Positions 26,652 through 38,843 of a DNA stretch of 64,000 nucleotides are shown here, one piece after another (position 1 is the first letter of the stretch; every line of letters begins with the position of its first letter). The notes under the pieces are model-generated. The model searched no databases. It was not told the DNA's origin and saw only the letters and a program-made list of their open reading frames with translations. The position numbers and the translations under genes are program-made. The DNA is from Gilliamella bombicola (GTDB lineage Bacteria > Pseudomonadota > Gammaproteobacteria > Enterobacterales > Orbaceae). The stretch is taken from contig NZ_FMAQ01000001.1 in NCBI RefSeq assembly GCF_900094945.1, positions 124,001 to 188,000 of the forward strand. Direction: 5' to 3'.

Positions 26652-27353
26652 ATGAAAAATACGACCGCAGACAAACTTCTTAATTCAGCAGAAAGGCTTT
26701 TTGCCCAAGCTAGTTACAGTGAAGTATCAATTAGAGATATCACAGAAGATGCAGGCGTAAAATTAGCCTTAGTTCATTACCATTTTGGCTCAAAAGAAGA
26801 GCTATTTAAAGCTGTCATTCGACGTAGGATTGGTAAATTAAGTTCAGACCGAATCCGTTTACTTAATTACTATAAAAATCAGAACGGCGATGAGCCTATG
26901 TCGTTAGAAAAAATCGTTGAATCTTTTTTAGCACCTTATCTTTATAACACTCTTTATGGTGGTGAAGGTTGGCGTTACTATGCTATTAATGTTGCACGGC
27001 TTTTATCATCAGGCTCAGCACTAGGTTTATCAATTTTATGTGAACAATTTGATCCTTATGCCGAATTCTTTATTGTGGAATTAAAAAGAGCCTATCCCTC
27101 AGCAACTAAAGAACAAATTCATTGGGGATTCGATTTTTTAGTTGGACTTATGTGTAACACTTTTGCAGAAGCTGATCGAATAAAGTTCCTTTCACATGAT
27201 ATTTGCTCTATCGAAAATCCAGAAATTGCTTGTCAATATCTTTATCATTATTCAATAGAAGGATTACATGCCGTACTAACAAAACCCAAATACGATTACC
27301 AATCCACTTTTGATATTATCAAATCCTTTTCAAATATAGATTCTTCCTTTTAA
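26652..27353 (+). CDS. TetR/AcrR-family transcriptional regulator
   Basis: 233 residues from ATG at 26652; a TTG at 26610 would add 14 residues unlike family members. The N-terminal helix-turn-helix is clear: LLNSAERLFAQ, then VSIRDITEDAGVKLALVHYHFGSKEELF. The C-terminal ligand domain (about 90-215) is unassigned. Two TetR-like palindromes with TTGAA...TTCAA halves lie between it and the cyclase gene, so it probably represses the downstream cyclase-MFS-BKACE operon until a substrate binds. Target and ligand are inferred from position. Confidence 0.88.
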   Translation: MKNTTADKLLNSAERLFAQASYSEVSIRDITEDAGVKLALVHYHFGSKEELFKAVIRRRIGKLSSDRIRLLNYYKNQNGDEPMSLEKIVESFLAPYLYNTLYGGEGWRYYAINVARLLSSGSALGLSILCEQFDPYAEFFIVELKRAYPSATKEQIHWGFDFLVGLMCNTFAEADRIKFLSHDICSIENPEIACQYLYHYSIEGLHAVLTKPKYDYQSTFDIIKSFSNIDSSF

Positions 27354-27410
27354 CCATACATTACCCTATCAATTAAACTAAAAAATTAGCACATTTTTAC
27401 CTCAAAAATA

Positions 27411-27429
27411 ATTGAACGTTCACTCAAAT
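27411..27429 (+). promoter_or_regulatory. Candidate TetR operator 1
   Basis: Contains GAACGTTC, an 8-bp perfect palindrome, inside TTGAACGTTCACTCAA. The left half matches operator 2 at 27463. It lies between the regulator and its presumed target operon. Confidence 0.5.
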
Positions 27430-27462
27430 TTGTGATCACTGCCATATTTTTAAATATTCAAT

Positions 27463-27478
27463 TTGAATGATCGTTCAA
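27463..27478 (+). promoter_or_regulatory. Candidate TetR operator 2
   Basis: TTGAATGATCGTTCAA is symmetric at 14 of 16 positions and has the form of many TetR-family operators. It is 67 bases before the cyclase start codon and 34 bases after operator 1, placing both in the promoter region. Confidence 0.6.
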
Positions 27479-27544
27479 TTAATTTTATATTGTGAATAAT
27501 TTATTTTCAGGTAATAACCAAAACTTAAATGAAAGGAGAAATGA

Positions 27545-28312
27545 ATGGAAATCATAGATCTAAGTATAGCAATTGAAGATCGCACACCTAATGATCCACC
27601 TTCTATGCCAACCGAAATTGATTATTGGGATCATATTAAAGGAGCTGAACATATCAAAACCTTTTTTCCAACAGCTACTAATGACGATTTACCAAAAGGT
27701 TTGGGCTGGGCAATTGAATATGTCAAATTAACAACCCATAGTGGGACACACCTCGATGCACCTTGGCACTATCATCCAACAATGAATAATGGAGAAAAAG
27801 CCAAGACTATTGATGAGATGCCATTAGAGTGGTGCATTTCTGACGGAGTGATGTTGAATTTTTCTCATTTCCCTGCGGGTTATATTGTTACTGCTAAAGA
27901 TATTGAAAAAGAATTAGATCGTATTGGTTATAAATTAAAACCGTTAGATATAGTACTAATTCAATCAGGCGCACAAAAATATTATGGCTCAAAAGAATAT
28001 TTGGTAAAAGGTTGTGGAATGGGAAGAGAAGCCACACTTTTTCTACTCAATCAAGGCATAAAAATTGTAGGTACCGATGCTTGGAGCTGGGACAGTCCAT
28101 TACCACTTGTAGCAGAGAAATTCAGAGAAACACATGACAAATCAATTATTTGGGAAGGACATTTTGCAGGCATTGAAAAAGAATATTACCACTTAGAAAA
28201 ACTAACTAATCTAGATAAATTACCTGCTTTTGGATTTACTGTGTCATGTTTACCAGTAAAAATCAAAAAAGCAAGTGCAGGTTGGACTCGAACCATTGCA
28301 ATAATGCCATAA
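27545..28312 (+). CDS. Cyclase-family (kynurenine formamidase-like) hydrolase
   Basis: 255 residues with an AAGGAG ribosome site. It carries the family metal motif H-S-G-T-H-L-D-A-P (about residues 73-82), and further VGTDAWSWDSP. Members of the Cyclase family (Pfam Cyclase) hydrolyse amide or lactone bonds, e.g. N-formylkynurenine, or isatin; others act in polyketide ring closure. The acidic and aromatic context does not point to a specific substrate. It is the first gene of an operon with an MFS carrier and a BKACE enzyme, so it may open or activate the imported compound. Signal peptide absent, so cytoplasmic. Confidence 0.85.
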   Translation: MEIIDLSIAIEDRTPNDPPSMPTEIDYWDHIKGAEHIKTFFPTATNDDLPKGLGWAIEYVKLTTHSGTHLDAPWHYHPTMNNGEKAKTIDEMPLEWCISDGVMLNFSHFPAGYIVTAKDIEKELDRIGYKLKPLDIVLIQSGAQKYYGSKEYLVKGCGMGREATLFLLNQGIKIVGTDAWSWDSPLPLVAEKFRETHDKSIIWEGHFAGIEKEYYHLEKLTNLDKLPAFGFTVSCLPVKIKKASAGWTRTIAIMP

Positions 28313-28330
28313 TTTACAGGAGTAAACGCA

Positions 28331-29527
28331 ATGAAAACAAAATTACTTAATAAATGGCATGTACTTGTTGGAGGTTTTTTTGGGTACATGTTTGATGCAA
28401 TGGATATTACTTTATTGGCTGTTTCATTACCTGCAATTATGAAAGACATGGATATGACAATGTCCCAAGGGGGACTACTTGGCACCGCAACGCTACTAGG
28501 GGTTGGGTTAAGTAGTGTCATTGTTGGTTGGTTTTCTGACAATCATGGAAGAAGAACATCATTAATCTGGAGTTTAATCATTTTTGGAATATTAACTGCT
28601 GCAATATCATTAAGTCCAAATTGGATCGTTTTGTTAATGTTACGTTTTACAGCAGGATTAGCGTTAGGTGGAGTGTGGGGTATTATCGCTGCTTATATAG
28701 CTGAATCGTGGCCCGCAAAACAACGTGGGAGAGCTGCTGCTTTTGTTTTAAGCTCATTTCCAGCTGGAGCTGGGATAGCTGCATTTCTTTCTTCACTCAT
28801 AATACCTGAATTTGGTTGGCGAGCTCTATTTTTAACGGGTGCGGGTTCAATTTTTGCAGCACTTTATATCTTCTTTTTTGTACCTGAATCAGAAGTTTGG
28901 AAAAACCAAAAAGAAGATAGAATTGCAAAAGGCGATATAAGCAATATTTCAATTAAAGAGATTTTTGCTCCAAATCTTTTTAAAAGAACAATTCTTGCCA
29001 CACTATTATCAAGTTTTGCTTTTGTTGCATATTGGGGATCGACTACATGGATACCAACATTTTTAGTACAAGTCCGAAGATTAGACATAAAAACAATGTC
29101 TTTGTTTTTTCTAATATTAAACATAGGAATGTTTGTCGGTTATAACTTATTTGGTTGGTTATCTGACAACATAGGGCGTAAAAAAGCGATTATCTTATCA
29201 TTCATTGGTACCACAATTACATTACCTATTTATGTAATGGTTGAAGACCCAATGATGATTTTATTGATGGGACCATTTTATGCTTTTTTCATCTCTTTTG
29301 TGGGGTTATTTGGCTCTTATTTTGGAGAATTGTTTCCTACACGCATAAGAACTTTAGGTGCAGGATTTTGCTTCAATGCAGGACGCGGAATATCTGCATT
29401 TTCACCATTTGTACTTGGTTTTATAGCAACTAAATATGGGCTTACTGTTGGCATTGGAATTTGTGCAGTATTCTTCTTCTTTTCTGCTATTACTATGCTT
29501 TTTTTACCGAATACCAAAATTGAATAA
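28331..29527 (+). CDS. MFS transporter, aromatic-acid/sugar-acid symporter type
   Basis: 398 residues, about 12 membrane segments. MFS motif A is visible as GWFSDNHGRR after segment 2 and again as GWLSDNIGRKKA after segment 8; the start DAMDITLLAVSLPAI fits the AAHS or metabolite:H+ symporter branches. Probably imports the carboxylate consumed by the two enzymes around it. It lies 18 bases after the cyclase gene and 14 bases before the BKACE gene, so all three share a transcript. Substrate unknown. Confidence 0.88.
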   Translation: MKTKLLNKWHVLVGGFFGYMFDAMDITLLAVSLPAIMKDMDMTMSQGGLLGTATLLGVGLSSVIVGWFSDNHGRRTSLIWSLIIFGILTAAISLSPNWIVLLMLRFTAGLALGGVWGIIAAYIAESWPAKQRGRAAAFVLSSFPAGAGIAAFLSSLIIPEFGWRALFLTGAGSIFAALYIFFFVPESEVWKNQKEDRIAKGDISNISIKEIFAPNLFKRTILATLLSSFAFVAYWGSTTWIPTFLVQVRRLDIKTMSLFFLILNIGMFVGYNLFGWLSDNIGRKKAIILSFIGTTITLPIYVMVEDPMMILLMGPFYAFFISFVGLFGSYFGELFPTRIRTLGAGFCFNAGRGISAFSPFVLGFIATKYGLTVGIGICAVFFFFSAITMLFLPNTKIE

Positions 29528-29541
29528 TTAGAGGTTAAATT

Positions 29542-30366
29542 ATGAATGATAAAGTAATTATTACTGTTGCAACTACAGGTGCCTTTCCAACTAAAGAACA
29601 TAATAAAGCAATACCAATGACACCACATGAAATAGCAAAAGATGTTTATGCATGTTGGAAAGCTGGTGCAGCTATTGCCCATCTTCATATGAGAGATGAT
29701 GATGGGCATGGGACTATGAGCGCTGAAAGATTTGAAGAAACAATTTCATTAATTCGTAAAACTGACTGCGATATTATTATCAATTGCACTACTTCGGGCG
29801 ATCTCCATGCAACAGATGAAACACGAATGATTCATTTATCGAAAGTAAAACCAGAAATGGCTTCATACGATTGTGGAACAATGAACTGGATGAACTCTAC
29901 CGTATTTTATAACACCCCTGCTTTTTTAGAAAAATTAGGTTATTACATGCAAGAACAAAATGTAAAACCAGAAATTGAAGTATTTGATGCAAGCTTTATC
30001 TATAACGCATTATATTATCTAAAAAAAGGAGTACTAAAAGCACCATTACACTTTCAACTTTGCATGGGGGCCCCTGGAGGTATTGCTGCCACTATTGAAA
30101 ATCTTGTTTTCCTAAAAAATTTATTACCCAAAGACTGCACATGGTCCGCATTTGGTATTGGTTCGAATCATTTACCTACACTTTTTGCAACCATTTCTAT
30201 GGGTGGACATATCCGTGTAGGAATGGAAGATAATGTATATTATGCGAAAGGAGAACTAGCAAAATCAAATTGTCAATTTGTTGAACGAGCTGTTCGTATT
30301 ATACAAGAAGCAGGAAAACAACCTGCAACACCAAACGAAGCAAGAAAGATATTAAATATCAAATAA
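29542..30366 (+). CDS. BKACE-family (DUF849) beta-keto acid cleavage enzyme
   Basis: 274 residues with an AGAGG ribosome site. Diagnostic features are the metal-ligand pair His47-x-His49 in AHLHMRDDDG, the NCTTSG segment and GAPGGIAAT, as in the 3-keto-5-aminohexanoate cleavage enzyme Kce (His46/His48). These enzymes cleave a beta-keto acid with acetyl-CoA to give acetoacetate and a CoA ester. The family covers many substrates, so lysine fermentation cannot be assumed; other lysine-fermentation genes are absent here. The adjacent cyclase, MFS carrier and TetR regulator suggest a dedicated uptake and breakdown pathway. Confidence 0.88.
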   Translation: MNDKVIITVATTGAFPTKEHNKAIPMTPHEIAKDVYACWKAGAAIAHLHMRDDDGHGTMSAERFEETISLIRKTDCDIIINCTTSGDLHATDETRMIHLSKVKPEMASYDCGTMNWMNSTVFYNTPAFLEKLGYYMQEQNVKPEIEVFDASFIYNALYYLKKGVLKAPLHFQLCMGAPGGIAATIENLVFLKNLLPKDCTWSAFGIGSNHLPTLFATISMGGHIRVGMEDNVYYAKGELAKSNCQFVERAVRIIQEAGKQPATPNEARKILNIK

Positions 30367-30378
30367 CTAGAAAGGTGA

Positions 30379-30405
30379 AACCATCAGTCTTTCTGGTGGT
30401 TTTTA
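30379..30405 (+). terminator. Terminator after the BKACE operon
   Basis: ACCATCAG pairs with CTGGTGGT (one G-T pair) and is followed by TTTTT, 14 bases after the BKACE stop. It overlaps the end of the convergent pcm gene. Confidence 0.8.
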
Positions 30406-35230: not shown

Positions 35231-36838
<1,608 letters not shown>

Positions 36839-36855
36839 TTAATTTGATATATCAA

Positions 36856-38556
36856 TTAAACAAAAGCAACAACTAATGGACCTAATAAAGTTAGGAAGAC
36901 ATTAGCTAAAGCATAAGTAATAGCAAAAGAATTAGTTGGTGTTGAGTTGCCAGCTTTATTAAGCACTTCACCAAAAGCAGGATTAGCACTACGTGCTCCA
37001 GCTAACGCACCAGCAAATACTGCTGCATTTTTATAGCCAAGCACATATTTACCAAAATAGATGGCAAGCAGCATCGGTAATAAGGTCACAACCACACCAA
37101 TTAAAAATAGGGATAAACCTTGTTCTTTAATAGTATTAATCGCTTGAAGACCTGAACTGAGACCCACAACAGCAACAAAACCTGCCAAGCCAAAGTCTTT
37201 TAAAAGTTGCACTGCACCAGTTGGAATATTACCAATAGTTTGATGAACAGAACGATACCAACCAAATAATAAACCAGATAAAAGCGCACCACCGCCTGCA
37301 CCTAAAGTAATTGGAATATTGCTAACACGAATCACAACTAAGCCAATAATAAGACCAACAACAAGCCCTAACCCATGGAATATCCAGTCAGTTTTTTCGC
37401 TTTTAGTAATTGGCGCACCGATTTTATCAACCACTCGACGAAGATCACCATCAGCACCATAAATGGTAATAACATCACCTAGTTTTAAATAGATATCATT
37501 ATTAAGGGGAAGAGATTGACCATCACGATGAATAGCCACAAGATAGATACCATGTTTTAATTTCATGACTTCGTCAGAAGTGAGCACTTGTGTAAGATTT
37601 TGTCCTACATACTTGTTGTTACGCATTTCAACATCTAGCTTGTTCATCACAACGTCCATACCTGATGCTGAATTAACTTCGGTACCAAGTAGATCATGCG
37701 CTTTAATCATTGCATCACGGTGACCAACAACTAGAATGATATCTTTCGACTTTAATACTGTTTCTGGTGTTGCTTCAATAATGTTATTGCCACGCTTGAT
37801 ACGCTCAATGCTAATACCATTAACAGTTTGCTCCACATGCGCAACGGTTTGATTGATTTTGTTTGAAATACGATATAAACGACCACTAATATCTGATAAA
37901 GCTAGATTTTGATCAGCCCCCAATAAAAGTGATCCATGAAGCTGTTCAGCTTGTGCTTTAATTGCATCATCGGCGATATCTTTCCCCATGATTTTTGGCA
38001 AAATATTAACGCACACAATAATGGCACCTAGTGAACCAAATATATAAGTTACCGCATAGCCAATGGTGACATTTGCTTGCATTTTTCTTAACTCTTCGAC
38101 ACTTAATCCAAGTTGACTTAAAGCATCAGAAGCCGTACCCATAATAGCAGATTGGGTTAAACCACCTGCCGCTAAACCAGCAGCAAGACCTTTATCTAAA
38201 TTGAATATTTTAGCTAATACCACAACAGTTATAAAACTTGCAACTGCAATAAATAATGCTAAGAAAATTTCGCGTAATGTTTTAACGCCTAGTGAGCGGA
38301 AAAACTGAGGACCACTTTCATAACCTACTGCATAAATAAACAGTGCGAAAAGAATCGCTTTAACGCCTGCGTCAATAGTCACACCAAAAACACTTAACGC
38401 AACGGCAACAAGTAATGAACCGGCGACACCACCAAGTTGGAATTTTCCCATCCGAATGCCGCCAATTAAATACCCTAAACTCAATGATAAAAATAATAAA
38501 ATTTCGGGAGAGTGTTTAAGTCCATCTAAAACCCAGTTTGAAAGCCATTGAAACAT
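36856..38556 (-). CDS. aspT: Aspartate:alanine antiporter AspT
   Basis: 566 residues from ATG at 38556, which has a GAGGA site; an upstream in-frame ATG at 38661 would add an unlikely 35 residues. The layout is AspT-like: five membrane segments, two cytoplasmic RCK_C/TrkA_C domains (about 200-370), then five more segments with conserved ARSANPAFGEVL and TPTNSFAITYA. The electrogenic exchange of aspartate for alanine works with AsdA in the next gene. An FNR-like site lies 59 bases upstream, which would suggest induction at low oxygen. Confidence 0.92.
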   Translation of the reverse strand: MFQWLSNWVLDGLKHSPEILLFLSLSLGYLIGGIRMGKFQLGGVAGSLLVAVALSVFGVTIDAGVKAILFALFIYAVGYESGPQFFRSLGVKTLREIFLALFIAVASFITVVVLAKIFNLDKGLAAGLAAGGLTQSAIMGTASDALSQLGLSVEELRKMQANVTIGYAVTYIFGSLGAIIVCVNILPKIMGKDIADDAIKAQAEQLHGSLLLGADQNLALSDISGRLYRISNKINQTVAHVEQTVNGISIERIKRGNNIIEATPETVLKSKDIILVVGHRDAMIKAHDLLGTEVNSASGMDVVMNKLDVEMRNNKYVGQNLTQVLTSDEVMKLKHGIYLVAIHRDGQSLPLNNDIYLKLGDVITIYGADGDLRRVVDKIGAPITKSEKTDWIFHGLGLVVGLIIGLVVIRVSNIPITLGAGGGALLSGLLFGWYRSVHQTIGNIPTGAVQLLKDFGLAGFVAVVGLSSGLQAINTIKEQGLSLFLIGVVVTLLPMLLAIYFGKYVLGYKNAAVFAGALAGARSANPAFGEVLNKAGNSTPTNSFAITYALANVFLTLLGPLVVAFV

Positions 38557-38614
38557 AATAATTGTCCTCAAGCGTAATGATATGTGAATAAAAAAAGATA
38601 TGTAATAGAATGGA

Positions 38615-38628
38615 ATGATATCCATCAA
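38615..38628 (-). promoter_or_regulatory. Candidate FNR site upstream of aspT
   Basis: ATGAT-ATCC-ATCAA matches TTGAT-N4-ATCAA at 9 of 10 defined positions. It is centred about 65 bases before the aspT start codon, a plausible activator position. It is a single site found by eye. Confidence 0.45.
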
Positions 38629-38843
38629 TTTGTATGAATATAGGTTTATATTAAATCTCAATTAGATTAATAGATATTCAGCTTTAACAATTAATGCTAT
38701 CGTCAGAAGATAATATAGAGAGATAATTAATATTGATTAAATAAAGGTACTAAATTGATTAATAAATTGTTTTGGAAAAAATTGAGGCGTCGCCATAATA
38801 TTGATATAAGATTGCGCGTAAATTATAGATTTAAAAAGGGCTA

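Follow-up and report, generated by a model that had tools for sequence, protein, structure and literature searches.

The window analyzed here, 64,000 nucleotides of Gilliamella bombicola contig NZ_FMAQ01000001.1 (positions 124,001 to 188,000), contains at positions 26652 to 30366 a TetR-type regulator gene, two palindromes, and a tight operon encoding a Cyclase-family hydrolase, a major facilitator superfamily (MFS) carrier, and a beta-keto acid cleavage enzyme (BKACE). This layout, described from the letters alone in an earlier note, is confirmed by profile matches and coordinates. The operon quite probably serves the hydrolysis of a substrate to a short neutral beta-keto acid, on which BKACE then acts. 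We assign an overall probability of roughly one half to the narrower reading in which the cyclase converts a C6 triketide ring to 3,5-dioxohexanoate (triacetate), the acid that BKACE would cleave. The substrate, which the earlier note called unknown, would thereby be narrowed to compounds that give rise to 3,5-dioxohexanoate or to a short, neutral beta-keto acid much like it. The features are as follows.

26652..27353, + strand: TetR/AcrR regulator (TetR_N plus TetR_C_30; PF17939, 71.2 bits; PF00440, 51.8 bits)
27412..27427, no strand assigned: operator-like palindrome 1, TTGAACGTTCACTCAA, between TetR and Cyc
27463..27478, no strand assigned: operator-like palindrome 2, TTGAATGATCGTTCAA, between TetR and Cyc, overlapping a -35-like hexamer
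27545..28312, + strand: Cyclase-family hydrolase (Cyc) of a clade named Cyc2 here (PF04199, 131 bits; cut-off, 23.1 bits)
28331..29527, + strand: MFS carrier (PF07690, 177.4 bits)
29542..30366, + strand: BKACE, with Phe15 at the position of Glu14 in the lysine-fermentation enzyme Kce (PF05853, 361.8 bits; cut-off, 24.8 bits)
30377..30403, no strand assigned: stem-loop with U run 3' of the operon, convergent with pcm (by folding energy)

In the pathway that we infer, inducer binding would free the operators from TetR, and the MFS carrier would import a small C6H6O3 ring, either phloroglucinol or the isomeric triacetic acid lactone. The metal-dependent cyclase would add water in one redox-free step to give 3,5-dioxohexanoate or a short, neutral beta-keto acid that closely resembles it. 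With acetyl-CoA, BKACE would convert 3,5-dioxohexanoate to acetoacetyl-CoA and acetoacetate, and a separate thiolase-AtoD-AtoA operon would activate the acetoacetate and lead to acetyl-CoA.

The closest known analog, which the earlier note missed, is the phloroglucinol degradation cluster of Clostridium scatologenes, which comprises a reductase (PGR), a cyclase (DPGC), a dehydrogenase (TfD), and a BKACE ("TAL") (PMC10470551). Because TfD undoes the reduction carried out by PGR, the net reaction of the first three enzymes is redox-free, phloroglucinol plus water giving 3,5-dioxohexanoate, and because of this net reaction a single hydrolase could replace the three genes. Both systems have a Cyclase-family hydrolase, a BKACE, an MFS carrier, a regulator, a thiolase, and a CoA-transferase, and in both BKACEs an aromatic residue replaces Glu14 (Phe here, Trp there). 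Unlike the C. scatologenes cluster, however, Gilliamella has no detected PGR or TfD, and its thiolase and CoA-transferase genes are unlinked to the operon. Its cyclase comes from a clade other than that of DPGC, is 24 to 27% identical to six DPGC-like proteins encoded in clusters of the phloroglucinol type, and lacks their Trp-Pro-Tyr motif. The component families are known, and together they look like the phloroglucinol cluster in a variant form, with another ring-opening step.

Gene neighborhoods were compared in the best 80 of 120 BKACE loci, with flanks of up to 8 kb. Genes were labeled by BLAST with references drawn from these same loci, the C. scatologenes proteins themselves being left out, and in GC-rich loci some genes may be missing from the open reading frame calls. 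PGR and/or DPGC was found in 16 of the 80 loci and Cyc2 in 16 (18 rows when the window and G035, a genome from another genus of the family, are included), and by label both cyclase types occurred together in none of the 80. The phloroglucinol-type clusters carry PGR, TfD, DPGC, and BKACE, often with a thiolase and AtoDA (e.g., L073 and L078). In Leminorella, Entomohabitans, Providencia, Pragia, and Limnobaculum, TetR is followed by Cyc2-MFS-BKACE-thiolase-AtoD-AtoA, with no PGR or TfD label in these five Enterobacterales loci; the identities of the Leminorella thiolase, AtoD, and AtoA were checked against NCBIfam. The PGR, DPGC, and TfD block thus appears to be swapped for Cyc2 while the downstream block stays, and a single hydrolase that would yield the same acid is therefore the simplest reading. 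Anaerospora has Cyc2-MFS-BKACE behind a regulator of another type, and the cyclase-BKACE pairing was found in Enterobacterales, Bacillota, SAR324, and alphaproteobacterial plasmids; a megablast comparison with the Leminorella operon found nothing in E. coli. The earlier proposal of a TetR-linked gene set for uptake, hydrolysis, and BKACE cleavage is upheld.

The BKACE belongs to the same family as Kce and likewise keeps His47, His49, and Glu229, which we take to be the zinc ligands. Unlike Kce, it has Phe15 in place of Glu14, falls under the Kce equivalog cut-off (NF052387, 330.4 < 382 bits), and has no lysine partners alongside. Glu14 of Kce binds the 5-amino group of the lysine intermediate, and TAL has Trp at this position (PMC10470551). 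Although Kce is the top-scoring NCBIfam model for the protein, lysine fermentation with this BKACE as Kce was rejected and has next to no probability, given the Glu14 replacement, the Kce model score, and the neighbors, the conserved partners being a cyclase, an MFS carrier, a thiolase, and a CoA-transferase. Lysine-fermentation partners are absent beside the BKACE gene, and a genome-wide search for them was not made. In a 76-row BKACE tree, the Gilliamella proteins sit within a large mixed clade of phloroglucinol-type, dehydrogenase, and other Cyc2 loci, while the lysine enzyme is placed outside it, with the caveat that its branch is long. The earlier suggestion of a pathway other than lysine fermentation agrees with all of this, the active-site match to Kce having turned out not to be close. 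Membership in a clade shared with phloroglucinol-type clusters and the aromatic residue at the Glu14 position would support the triketide reading. The Cyc2 label requires 9 changes on the same tree, and the cyclase-BKACE pairing therefore seems to have arisen, moved, or been lost repeatedly.

Other arrangements were seen among the BKACE loci. Operons of BKACE, Cyc2, and a sodium/solute-symporter-like gene occur in Brevibacillus (L074, L075, and L077), where Val takes the place of Glu14; the L074 protein scores 374.2 versus the Kce cut-off of 382. A Lachnospiraceae locus (L042, 3803-11155) has two BKACE genes with a sodium/solute symporter homolog and a frame that by eye is HMG-CoA reductase-like. 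A carnitine-type reading, initially suspected for the closest BKACE loci (L015 and L030), was rejected: the dehydrogenases of L020 and L025 came nowhere near the cut-offs of the carnitine dehydrogenase models (for L015 and L030 the dehydrogenases carry BLAST labels only and were not scanned against these models), and in Sporomusa malonica L020 the same BKACE-dehydrogenase pair has PGR- and DPGC-like genes close by. The deoxyribonate pathway (short-chain dehydrogenase/reductase [SDR], lactonase, and BKACE; PMC6365646) was dropped, as no SDR gene is linked to the operon.

The predicted structure of the cyclase has a mean pLDDT of 93.3 and aligns with 8f9x, isatin hydrolases, and kynurenine formamidases with Z scores of 23.6 to 26.4 (isatin hydrolase 4m8d, Z 25.9, root mean square deviation 2.2, 226 aligned residues; 5nna, Z 25.8; 4cog, Z 24.1). 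It shares with 4m8d, 5nna, and 4cog the fold and the metal motif HxGTHxDxxxH but is only 21 to 23% identical to them in the structure alignment, and the KynB arylformamidase equivalog TIGR03035 was not reached (28.9 < 223.05). In an alignment of 20 cyclases, H65, H69, D71, H75, H206, and E218 are invariant. The resemblance of the model to isatin hydrolase and kynurenine formamidase (Z 23.6 to 25.9) would be in keeping with ring opening by hydrolysis. A tentative form of the triketide reading, which we consider possible but doubtful, is that the enzyme is a phloroglucinol hydrolase that opens the triketo tautomer of the aromatic ring with water alone to give triacetate. Such a reaction would need no reduction, oxygen, or CoA activation and would take one step where three enzymes are known. 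Triacetic acid lactone would give the same acid by ester hydrolysis; for that substrate the net step is the one of triacetate-lactonase (EC 3.1.1.38), for which we know of no sequence. Among the matches listed in a literature search for this enzyme, only "dehydroacetic acid" came up and the enzyme name was not found.

The fold family also hydrolyzes amides, as in isatin hydrolase and kynurenine formamidase, which would fit a rival explanation in which the substrate is some other ester, lactone, or amide derived from a short beta-keto acid, such as a 3-oxohexanoyl or 5-hydroxy-3-oxohexanoyl derivative. The cyclase would then be a lactonase or amidase acting on substrates such as dihydropyrones or acyl-homoserine lactones, and BKACE would release butyryl- or hydroxybutyryl-CoA and acetoacetate. 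The SMP-30 lactonase homologs near Cyc2 and BKACE in L036, L038, and L224 are on its side. However, the contexts of known chemistry in the BKACE clade are phloroglucinol-type clusters, and to oxidize butyryl- or hydroxybutyryl-CoA further the cell would want a 3-hydroxyacyl-CoA dehydrogenase, whereas the best PF02737 matches in the genome are partial (22.5 bits, with a cut-off of 22, and 20.6 bits). We hold it to be a lesser possibility. The three loci are TetR-TRAP-cyclase-BKACE-SMP-30 sets from Chelatococcus (L224, 2228-8800), SAR324, and another genome, and the SMP-30 homolog is 72% identical between L036 and L224; perhaps it reopens a lactone formed from triacetate.

Plasmids provide a second line of comparison for the triketide reading. 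A cyclase match was present in 177 of 72,556 plasmid records, and 16 chosen regions were viewed (H1, 2, 3, 7, 9, 10, 12, 17, 24, 25, 35, 36, 37, 40, 43, and 45; gene tables incomplete). BKACE lies at most one gene from the cyclase in four of these (H10, H12, H17, and H40), and Paracoccus denitrificans L231 repeats the exact order of TetR followed by Cyc-MFS-BKACE. The plasmid BKACEs near Cyc2 in Paracoccus, Chelatococcus, and Porphyrobacter are from another branch, only 34 to 35% identical to that of the window, and pass NF053538, the model for 3,5-dioxohexanoate:acetyl-CoA acetone transferase (523.1, 552.4, and 518.5 > 430 bits). The same family includes BKACE15 of Paracoccus denitrificans (8RIO; PMC11961710), and its members stand near Cyc2 homologs in alphaproteobacterial clusters, once in the identical order to that of Gilliamella. 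The BKACEs near such cyclases thus come from two branches far apart and point to one class of substrate, if not to one acid.

A fourth plasmid BKACE near Cyc2, that of Agrobacterium (L236), bears on a beta-ketoadipate-like pathway, in which the cyclase would open an enol-lactone from aromatic breakdown and BKACE would convert 3-oxoadipate to succinyl-CoA. Its BKACE-thioesterase-cyclase genes lie beside genes annotated as a dioxygenase, a maleylacetate reductase, and a flavin-dependent oxidoreductase, and the Gilliamella MFS carrier resembles aromatic acid symporters. Yet the window BKACE is only 35% identical to that of L236 and fails the 3-oxoadipate model (230.3 < 350 bits), and no ring-cleaving dioxygenase stands beside the operon, which makes this pathway very improbable here.

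Among the plasmid matches, loci with a cyclase and a fumarylacetoacetate-hydrolase gene (L225, L226, L228, L229, and L232) have TetR in three of five cases and TRAP transporters in two of five and may represent a parallel module with another C-C hydrolase in place of BKACE. Apilactobacillus kunkeei, of a bee-associated genus, accounts for 13 plasmid records with a cyclase match (e.g., OX335326.1, 13441-14187); among the matches listed, five of its cyclases are 37.5% identical and bear a kynurenine formamidase annotation.

The host genome (2.32 Mb; closest named relatives, Gilliamella) has one BKACE match, one thiolase match, and one adjacent pair of CoA-transferase subunits. The thiolase and CoA-transferase genes are on another contig, C18, divergent from a LysR gene. 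An ordinary pathway of the C. scatologenes type, with PGR and TfD encoded elsewhere and the cyclase acting on dihydrophloroglucinol, would share the BKACE clade, MFS carrier, thiolase, and AtoDA with what is seen here. Against it, a genome search with the L025 SDR gave 11 matches, the best of which (37% identical) passes the gluconate 5-dehydrogenase model NF005983 (471.5 > 408 bits), so no PGR was found. No convincing TfD-type gene was found in the genome either, as the two partial PF02737 matches compare with 170 bits for the dehydrogenase of BKACE cluster L020. Together with the low identity of the cyclase to DPGC-like proteins and the lack of any locus among the 80 with both cyclase types, this leaves the ordinary pathway very improbable. 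PF18089 (phloretin/diacetylphloroglucinol hydrolase) matched 0 of 45 genomes, the control likewise being without any match.

In a survey of 35 Gilliamella genomes, not all of them complete (the least at 59%), a cyclase of at least 90% identity was present in three (G000, G003, and G032) and a closely related BKACE in the same three, and the operon is patchy within the genus. G016 has a decayed 72-residue 3' piece of BKACE between pcm and pnuC (L167, 9514-9873) and has a matching ato operon (L182); in G023 the BKACE is a distant one (33%). The thiolase-AtoDA type of the window genome (AtoD 84 to 87% identical) occurs in exactly G000, G003, G016, and G032, other CoA-transferases in G003, G011, G014, and G016 being 50 to 54% identical. 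The ato type thus accompanies the operon, with the remnant counted, in 4 of 4 genomes against 0 of 31 (Fisher test, 1.9e-5; intact operons only, 6e-4), although these strains share ancestry. Beyond the genus, G035 has the operon genes and the ato type, and G039 and G042 have the ato type without BKACE. Among 394 genomes sampled from the order, a cyclase of at least 80% identity was found only in G000, G003, and G032, two others reaching 52%.

Several observations weigh against the triketide reading. The window BKACE is under the NF053538 cut-off (224 < 430), and its miss of the Kce model was also counted on this side. Because its close relatives L015 (71%) and L016 (69%) pair BKACE with a hydroxyacid-dehydrogenase homolog and no cyclase was seen there, the clade may act on short beta-keto acids of other kinds. 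The WPYF stretch of DPGC-like proteins, taken to hold Trp20 and Tyr22 of DPGC, is absent from the cyclase, and these residues are not conserved; moreover, the PGR, TfD, and DPGC labels were given by cluster composition, following PMC10470551. Many cyclase homologs at 47 to 62% identity have no BKACE nearby, none was seen near those of other gammaproteobacteria (L171 to L180), and none is nearby in 12 of the 16 plasmid regions, in 5 of which (H7, H9, H24, H36, and H45) a fumarylacetoacetate-hydrolase homolog adjoins the cyclase. As the partner genes in L171 to L180 and the plasmid regions are mixed (Rieske, VOC, fumarylacetoacetate hydrolase, and hydantoin racemase), the Cyc2 clade does not seem to be single-function at about 50% identity. 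The Agrobacterium BKACE fails NF053538 (153.5) and lies by the dioxygenase and maleylacetate reductase genes, and thiolase and AtoDA would be needed for any BKACE substrate. Literature tying phloroglucinol to Gilliamella was not found (candidate papers unopened), the word is absent from the main text of PMC5726620, and no description of a cyclase-BKACE pair or of the substrate in this host was found among the papers listed from literature outside subscription.

If the triketide reading is true, the Cyc2 clade gains a testable reaction, insect gut bacteria would have a way from the flavonoid A-ring to acetyl-CoA that is redox-neutral and needs no oxygen, and names that call such BKACEs lysine-fermentation enzymes would be corrected. 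If the ring is triacetic acid lactone, the cyclase would be, to our knowledge, the first triacetate lactonase gene. Several operon carriers are presumably insect associates (Drosophila, cricket, and beetle), and others are not. In the bee gut, pollen flavonoids are consumed and ions annotated as phenylpropionates accumulate; flavonoid use is mostly by Firm-5, Firm-4, and Bifidobacterium, with Gilliamella apicola credited with quercitrin only, and that text does not say what becomes of the other flavonoid ring, for which phloroglucinol would be expected (PMC5726620). This ecology is weakly compatible with the proposed pathway.

The regulator has NicR as its best match among solved structures and falls under the PsrA equivalog cut-off (NF053516, 79.9 < 300). 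Its homologs beside equivalent genes are 83 to 86% identical in Gilliamella, 63% in G035, and 48 to 51% in the five Enterobacterales but only 29% on the Paracoccus plasmid. The two 16-bp near-palindromes upstream of Cyc are 51 bp apart. A palindrome scan of the window with up to 2 mismatches gave 5 matches versus a mean of 1.5 (5 reached in 2 of 100 shuffles), 4 of the 5 being the two sites read on both strands. With up to 1 mismatch, the pattern TTGAAYGNNCGTTCAA has 3 matches in the whole 2.32-Mb genome, all at the two sites, which is not above chance, as the reversed-pattern control likewise gave 3; the clustering of both palindromes ahead of one operon is notable, the genome-wide count is not. 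Conservation across relatives appears to be better evidence for operators than counts within the genome. G035 carries a drifted pair, TTGGTCGGTCGTTCAA and TTGATCGGTCGTTCAA, and the five Enterobacterales have TTGGACGACTGTCTAA-like and TTGGACGTACGACCAA sites 27 to 28 bp apart. The consensus derived from the latter finds two sites in three of four Orbaceae intergenic regions (window, L034, and G035; equaled by 0, 0, and 0.1% of 2000 shuffles) and one site only in L014, and the reverse test finds two sites in all five Enterobacterales (0.4 to 1.8% of shuffles). On the Paracoccus plasmid, a single TTGGACGAACGACCAA stands ahead of the cyclase with zero mismatches to the joint consensus. It is through these sites that TetR would repress the operon. 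A sigma-70-like match (27463-27491; TTGAAT, 17 nucleotides, TATATT at 27486-27491) places its -35 hexamer inside palindrome 2, such matches not being in excess (13 found versus 19.3 expected). The operator pattern is absent at the ato operon with up to 1 mismatch, and membership of that operon in the TetR regulon was rejected on this ground. The top NCBIfam model for the MFS carrier is the aromatic acid/H+ symport subfamily, below its cut-off (208.7 versus 418.55 bits).

Gaps of 18 nucleotides between Cyc and MFS and 14 between MFS and BKACE, ribosome-site-like purine runs before all three genes, and the hairpin with its U run suggest that they form a single transcription unit. The stem-loop has a folding energy of -16.4 kcal/mol (z -3.68; equaled by 1 of 200 shuffles), and a separate terminator scan has no entry for it. 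No ribosome-site-like run was visible by eye before TetR. The neighbors are housekeeping genes (nadR and pnuC by profile match; pcm, truD, ispF, and ispD by eye), and no composition signal for horizontal transfer was found, operon GC and GC3 (third-position GC) being near those of the neighbors. Farther along the window (35231-38661, - strand), adjacent genes for aspartate 4-decarboxylase and an aspartate-alanine antiporter, both passing NCBIfam cut-offs, appear to form an energy-conserving decarboxylation pair.

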